Below are positions 15,876 to 16,015 of a stretch of 64,000 nt of DNA, piece by piece. The DNA is from Thermoplasmata archaeon. Lineage in GTDB: Archaea; Thermoplasmatota; Thermoplasmata; Lutacidiplasmatales; UBA184. The translations under genes and the position numbers were made by a program. Under the pieces are notes generated by a model. It was not told the DNA's origin, did no database searches, and worked only from the letters and a program-made list of their open reading frames with translations. Position 1 is the first letter of the stretch, and every line of letters starts with the position of its first letter. Location of the stretch: positions 1-64,000 of the forward strand of contig DASPVQ010000005.1 of the NCBI GenBank assembly GCA_035622275.1, given 5' to 3'.

Positions 15876-15982
15876 TAGCCCCGGCAGGAGTTCCGGCCGG
15901 CGGGGTCGCGGACCCCCGCGGCGTTCGAACCTGCGTCGCGAGATCCAGAGTCTCGCATGATTGGCCACTACACCACGGGGCT
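15876..15982 (-). tRNA. tRNA-Gln (anticodon CTG) with an intron in the T loop
   Basis: On the minus strand the gene starts AGCCCCG and has a normal D arm, an anticodon stem CGAGA/TCTCG with loop CTCTGGA (anticodon CTG), and a 5' T-stem GCAGG followed by TTCGAA. The matching 3' T-stem CCTGC, acceptor CGGGGCT and discriminator A appear only after a 34-nt insert (about 15890-15923). Removing the insert leaves exactly 73 nt with a complete cloverleaf. The insert holds a GGGGTC-CGC-GACCCC hairpin and ends in GAAC, which can pair with exon GTTC, as in a bulge-helix-bulge splice site. Exact cut sites are uncertain by 1-2 nt. Confidence 0.85.
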
Positions 15983-16007
15983 ACGCGTCCACGAGCCGGG
16001 GTCGATT

Positions 16008-16015
16008 GATAAACG
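16008..16015 (-). promoter_or_regulatory. TATA box for tRNA-Gln
   Basis: CGTTTATC on the minus strand is centred about 29 nt before the first tRNA nucleotide, the expected archaeal spacing. It supports the tRNA being expressed despite its interrupted T arm. Confidence 0.6.

Follow-up and report, generated by a model that had tools for sequence, protein, structure and literature searches.

A predicted T-loop intron in tRNA-Gln(CUG), one of thirteen at position 59/60, in a Thermoplasmata archaeon encoding an apparent alpha'2-type splicing endonuclease

In Euryarchaeota with alpha4 or alpha'2 splicing endonucleases, tRNA introns are few, essentially one per gene and located at the canonical position, and non-canonical introns have been linked to enzymes of (alpha beta)2 or epsilon-2 type with special loops (PMC4090602, PMC4033280, PMC6379350). 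The alpha4 and alpha'2 enzymes are called narrow (PMC4033280, PMC6379350, PMC12397907). Position 59/60, within the T loop, is a listed non-canonical position in Crenarchaeota and Nanoarchaeota (Yoshihisa 2014 review, PMC4090602), and an intron burst is known from Thermoproteales (Sugahara 2008 and Fujishima 2010, as cited in PMC4033280). The introns described here share with those of Crenarchaeota and Nanoarchaeota the position, the bulge-helix-bulge (BHB) logic and the large number of genes per genome, but the host belongs to the Thermoplasmata, 13 introns sit at the single position 59/60, and the enzyme appears to be alpha'2-type, not (alpha beta)2. They resemble the Thermoproteales burst in being a large lineage-specific gain of non-canonical introns, here with up to two per gene, but without a CSL-bearing (alpha beta)2 enzyme. 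Position 59/60 itself is already known from other archaea. Our search of the open-licence literature for Thermoplasmata with non-canonical tRNA introns found nothing relevant, and as far as that literature goes the abundance of T-loop introns alongside a 'narrow'-type enzyme in Thermoplasmata is new.

The window (the whole stretch of DNA analysed, 64,000 nt) contains a tRNA-Gln(CTG) gene of 107 nt including the intron, located on the minus strand at 15876-15982, exactly where the initial annotation had placed it. In our reading the tRNA-Gln(CUG) gene is functional and its intron, at position 59/60, is of the non-canonical archaeal kind, probably spliced by an alpha'2-type endonuclease and RtcB; we assign this reading a probability of about 95%. 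Read from 15982 to 15876, exon 1 is AGCCCCG TG GTGTAGTGGCCAATCAT G CGAGA CTCTGGA TCTCG CGAC GCAGG TTCGAA, the intron is CGCCGCGGGGGTCCGCGACCCCGCCGGCCGGAAC, and exon 2 is T CCTGC CGGGGCT A. The features of the locus and the evidence for each are as follows.

15876..15982, minus strand: tRNA-Gln(CTG) gene, 107 nt with intron (gene scan, orthologue alignment)
15924..15982, minus strand: exon 1, tRNA positions 1-59, anticodon CTG (45 sequences with exon columns either unchanged or compensated; matches in outgroups stop at nt 59)
15890..15923, minus strand: 34-nt intron at position 59/60 (orthologue alignment; outgroup tRNA-Gln(CTG) genes without insert)
15876..15889, minus strand: exon 2, positions 60-73 (orthologue alignment)
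16006..16013, minus strand: TATA-like promoter element TTTATCAA, -31 to -24 (A/T at -30 to -28 in 49 of 49 orthologues)

The failure of a plain cloverleaf, pointed out in the initial annotation, was reproduced with both gene finders: ARAGORN run without introns set the 3' end wrongly, at 15910, and a search of the window with the Rfam tRNA model gave no match at the locus. Removing the 34 nt yields, as had been proposed, a complete 73-nt tRNA-Gln(CTG), on which the ARAGORN score (125) and the cloverleaf fold agree. The spliced T loop TTCGAAT is identical to that of the intact, intron-free tRNA-Gln(TTG) gene of the same genome (C20:99705-99777). A second complete tRNA-Gln(CTG) gene, which had been named as a possible refutation, was looked for in the 97.4% complete draft, where the 2766-nt contig C11 is all N, and none was detected.

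The 107-nt sequence is matched without length change in about 50 species of the window's genus (Lutacidiplasmatales-like Thermoplasmata). In all 45 distinct orthologous sequences, which come from this one genus, the intron is exactly 34 nt long. Invariant columns number 69 of 73 in the exons versus 3 of 34 in the intron, and the three intron columns (i2, i29 and i30) all belong to the motif described below; the anticodon stem shows a compensatory change. Upstream, the TATA-like TTTAT is kept at -31 to -24, with A/T at -30 to -28 in all 49 upstream regions, in the setting of a genome of 71.7% GC. Best matches in the other families examined stop at nt 59, the end of exon 1, and outgroup tRNA-Gln(CTG) genes from other families of the class (L190-L195) read TTCGAA followed directly by TC, with no insert. 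Among the families of the class that were compared, the Gln intron was found in the window's genus only.

Together the exon and intron sequences form a strict hBHBh' motif consisting of a 5-bp T stem (49-53/61-65), a 3-nt bulge, a 4-bp central helix, a second 3-nt bulge and a 4-bp distal helix. BHB motifs are cleaved after the second bulge nucleotide.

15926..15929, minus strand: central helix H, exon strand T54 T55 C56 G57 (99.4% of cells paired in the 45 distinct orthologues)
15892..15895, minus strand: central helix H, intron strand C29 G30 G31 A32 (alignment; also found de novo)
15923..15925, minus strand: 5' bulge, A58 A59 and C(i1), predicted cut after A59 (alignment and cut rule)
15889..15891, minus strand: 3' bulge, A(i33) C(i34) and T60, predicted cut before T60 (alignment)
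15919..15922, minus strand: distal helix h', 5' strand GCCG, i2-i5 (both-sided changes in 3 of 4 pairs)
15896..15899, minus strand: distal helix h', 3' strand CGGC, i25-i28 (alignment)
15902..15916, minus strand: intron-internal hairpin GGGGTC/GACCCC, varying between species (folding, alignment)

The central helix pairs TTCG (54-57) with CGGA (i29-i32), and of the 27 cells at i31 and i32 that differ across the orthologues from the most frequent base, 26 still pair with U; in the distal helix, the changes on both sides were likewise counted over these 45 sequences. RNAalifold, used de novo, recovered the T stem, the 3-nt interruption and the central helix in its consensus unprompted. The minimum-energy fold of the window sequence adopts the same 54-57/i29-i32 register, although the central helix reaches a pair probability of only about 0.4 in the thermodynamic ensemble of that sequence alone. 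The hairpin within the insert, already noted in the initial annotation, is present on folding. The pairing of GAAC with positions 53-56 that was suggested alongside it can be drawn in the window sequence but leaves C56 partnerless in 18 of the 45 orthologues, and this register was discarded as not conserved. A BHB-type intron outside Thermoproteales, which had seemed unusual, is upheld by the position and by the motif conserved in 45 sequences; the gene shows the marks of an archaeal non-canonical BHB intron in that removal of the insert gives back a standard tRNA, the position is not 37/38 and the hBHBh' motif is present. In the predicted pre-tRNA the T stem, the 54-57/i29-i32 helix and the distal helix of the intron would form this strict structure, the alpha'2-type endonuclease would cut after A59 and before T60, RtcB would ligate the exons to give the standard T loop TTCGAAU, and the cell would use the spliced tRNA-Gln(CUG).

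We then looked at the genome as a whole by splicing in silico at every TTCRA site, requiring T-stem pairing and scoring with ARAGORN, with the BHB motif not used as a criterion. Thirteen tRNA genes were found to have an insert at 59/60, 23-38 nt in length: Gln-CTG, Arg-TCG, Arg-TCT, Glu-CTC, Asp-GTC, His-GTG, Asn-GTT, Ala-GGC, Gly-TCC, Lys-TTT, Ser-GCT, Ser-CGA and Ser-GGA. Beyond the motif these inserts have no obvious sequence similarity, and they pair in 45 of 52 central helix positions (22.5 expected) and 49 of 52 distal ones (21.5 expected), a level reached by none of 10000 shuffles. The excess over the shuffles, together with the fixed 34-nt length in the 45 Gln orthologues, indicates that the motif is more than chance. 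A genome scan for the BHB motif alone returned 304,240 candidates, mostly chance, and the real set emerged only after splicing and tRNA scoring. The Rfam tRNA model finds 3 of the 13 genes, truncated or low-scoring, so that such genomes look tRNA-poor; standard gene finding loses tRNAs with T-loop introns. Canonical 37/38 introns occur in the Met, Tyr, Leu-TAA and Trp genes, and D-loop inserts in four genes, one of them the Lys-TTT gene that also has a T-loop insert:

C17:7023-7127: iMet
C20:198992-199099: Arg-GCG
C20:175055-175163: Pro-TGG
C13:11439-11581: Lys-TTT

By our count, introns interrupt about 20 of the 45 tRNA genes detected; a search of the draft genome for Glu-TTC and Leu-TAG genes, with double introns allowed, found neither. 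The Gln intron is part of a lineage-wide expansion of T-loop introns, 13 genes strong in this genome.

Two other accounts of the locus were considered. Were it a decayed tRNA-Gln(CTG) pseudogene split by an insertion, CAG would be read through wobble by tRNA-Gln(TTG), which is complete and able in principle to do so; yet the exons hardly vary across about 50 species and the intron drifts, the insert length is fixed, the anticodon stem changes in a compensatory manner, the promoter-like TATA-like box is conserved, and the same layout recurs in 12 other tRNA genes, of which those for Asp, His and Asn have no other copy detected in the genome. We regard decay as highly improbable, and place in the same class the possibility that the mature tRNA retains the 34 nt and so has an enlarged T loop. 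The insert does form a stable hairpin on the T stem, but both junctions lie within 3-nt bulges around a conserved 4-bp helix, 13 tRNAs have inserts at one position that range over 23-38 nt and show no obvious similarity outside the motif, outgroups lack the insert, and retention would cost the tRNA its contact between T loop and D loop.

A further question is why the introns are kept. T-loop introns may be maintained because they break the tRNA 3' end that integrating elements use as an attachment site, and on that account they would not be neutral passengers, an idea already published (Randau and Soll 2008, as cited in PMC3978253). We located five displaced copies of tRNA 3' ends, 17-26 nt long and running from T loop to discriminator, which are likely attachment-site remnants:

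C20:102245-102262: Gln-TTG
C7:144655-144673: Val-CAC
C17:12475-12495: Thr-GGT
C22:10528-10553: Arg-CCG
C8:743-759: a CAT tRNA

All five derive from genes free of T-loop introns and none from the 13, as a shielding role would predict, but the numbers are too small (by our calculation, the chance of none in five is about 0.16), inspection by eye showed no integrase beside the Gln-TTG copy, and exon 2 alone, at 14 nt, is too short for reliable copy detection. We consider such a role a tentative and rather unlikely explanation.

Returning to splicing of the Gln intron, we examined the endonuclease architecture of the genome, a check that had been recommended. A single endonuclease gene was found, with two PF01974-type (tRNA_int_endo) domains in one 384-aa open frame; no other domain match pointed to a second endonuclease gene in the draft genome, and an RtcB gene is present.

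C19:34563-35363: alpha'2-type splicing endonuclease (predicted)
C18:9539-10843: RtcB

The endonuclease is single-chain in 27 relatives too, and its nearest named relatives are Thermoplasmata MAGs, among them UBA184 and AcS/SubAcS MAGs; the Lutacidiplasmatales paper (PMC9287336) includes UBA184 and AcS MAGs. These protein hits are the basis on which the organism is placed in the Thermoplasmata. Residues Y292, H300 and K331 in the C-terminal unit align with the catalytic Y246, H257 and K287 of Archaeoglobus fulgidus; in 28 sequences neither they nor the bulge-binding R324 (R280 in A. fulgidus) vary. An insertion of the CSL/ASL type, the crenarchaeal and ARMAN loops to which relaxed specificity is ascribed (11-18 residues that include a conserved Lys and precede the strand entering the catalytic unit), is absent from the alignments and from an AlphaFold monomer model (mean pLDDT 92.8), in which a 4-residue turn joins helix 199-208 to strand 213-215; the site is only a few residues longer than in A. 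fulgidus and one longer than in M. jannaschii. Alignments and model thus point to an alpha'2-type enzyme without CSL or ASL.

The alpha'2 enzymes of A. fulgidus and Thermoplasma acidophilum (1RLV, 2GJW, 2OHC) likewise combine two endonuclease domains in one chain with the triad in the second, and the A. fulgidus enzyme superimposes on our model with a TM-score of 0.88-0.89 (by target). They are rated narrow in specificity (PMC6379350), whereas the same architecture would here have to serve about 20 intron-bearing tRNA genes. The best match in both sequence and structure is the (alpha beta)2 enzyme of Methanopyrus kandleri (5X89, a subunit fusion; E 1e-29, TM 0.87/0.91), rated 'constrained broad' (PMC6379350), which aligns without an insert at the loop site and whose subunits are separate in nature but correspond to a single chain here. 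The epsilon-2 endonuclease of ARMAN-2 (4FZ2, 9W2K) also serves a genome with non-canonical introns, but it has three units and an 11-residue ASL and fits poorly (TM 0.51-0.56).

The initial annotation had held that an intron at this position would require an endonuclease accepting relaxed motifs. For Gln this does not hold, as the motif is strict, of the kind that narrow alpha'2 enzymes reportedly cut, and the enzyme appears to be alpha'2-type without CSL or ASL; the requirement was dropped. The question of relaxed motifs falls instead on several other T-loop introns. Seven of the other 12 have one mismatch in the central helix: genes reading TTCGAA have a complete helix, except Asn with a C-C mismatch, and genes reading TTCAAA have an A57-G mismatch, except His with A-U. 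For Glu(CTC), compared in 29 genomes (L282-L311), A57 faces G in 25, U in two and A in two, and the mismatch would seem to be kept as if selected; for Asp and Lys, a G57-C pair is present in 59 of 59 cases. It is the introns with A57-G that truly challenge the rule.

Extending this to the whole genus, we consider it an even call whether more than a quarter of the tRNA genes bear T-loop introns at one position and an alpha'2 enzyme without CSL/ASL cuts both strict motifs and those with the A57-G mismatch. If true, this would break the rule by which relaxed introns go with enzymes of (alpha beta)2 or epsilon-2 type. With 13 introns in the T loop and four in the D loop, an alpha'2 lineage provides a clean natural test of whether the enzyme is limited by intron position or by how strict the motif is.

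The tRNA-Lys(TTT) gene with both D-loop and T-loop inserts is also found in several other Thermoplasmata families (L376-L383, L385), which indicates that its T-loop intron is old. Short T-loop inserts beside the canonical insert occur in the Glu and Asp genes of L386 and L374, from another family of the same order, and the Asp gene of L372 and L373 has no T-loop insert. As a separate observation, in L188, L189 and L387, which belong to another family of this order, large inserts follow the anticodon in tRNA-Gln(TTG) and tRNA-Glu(CTC).
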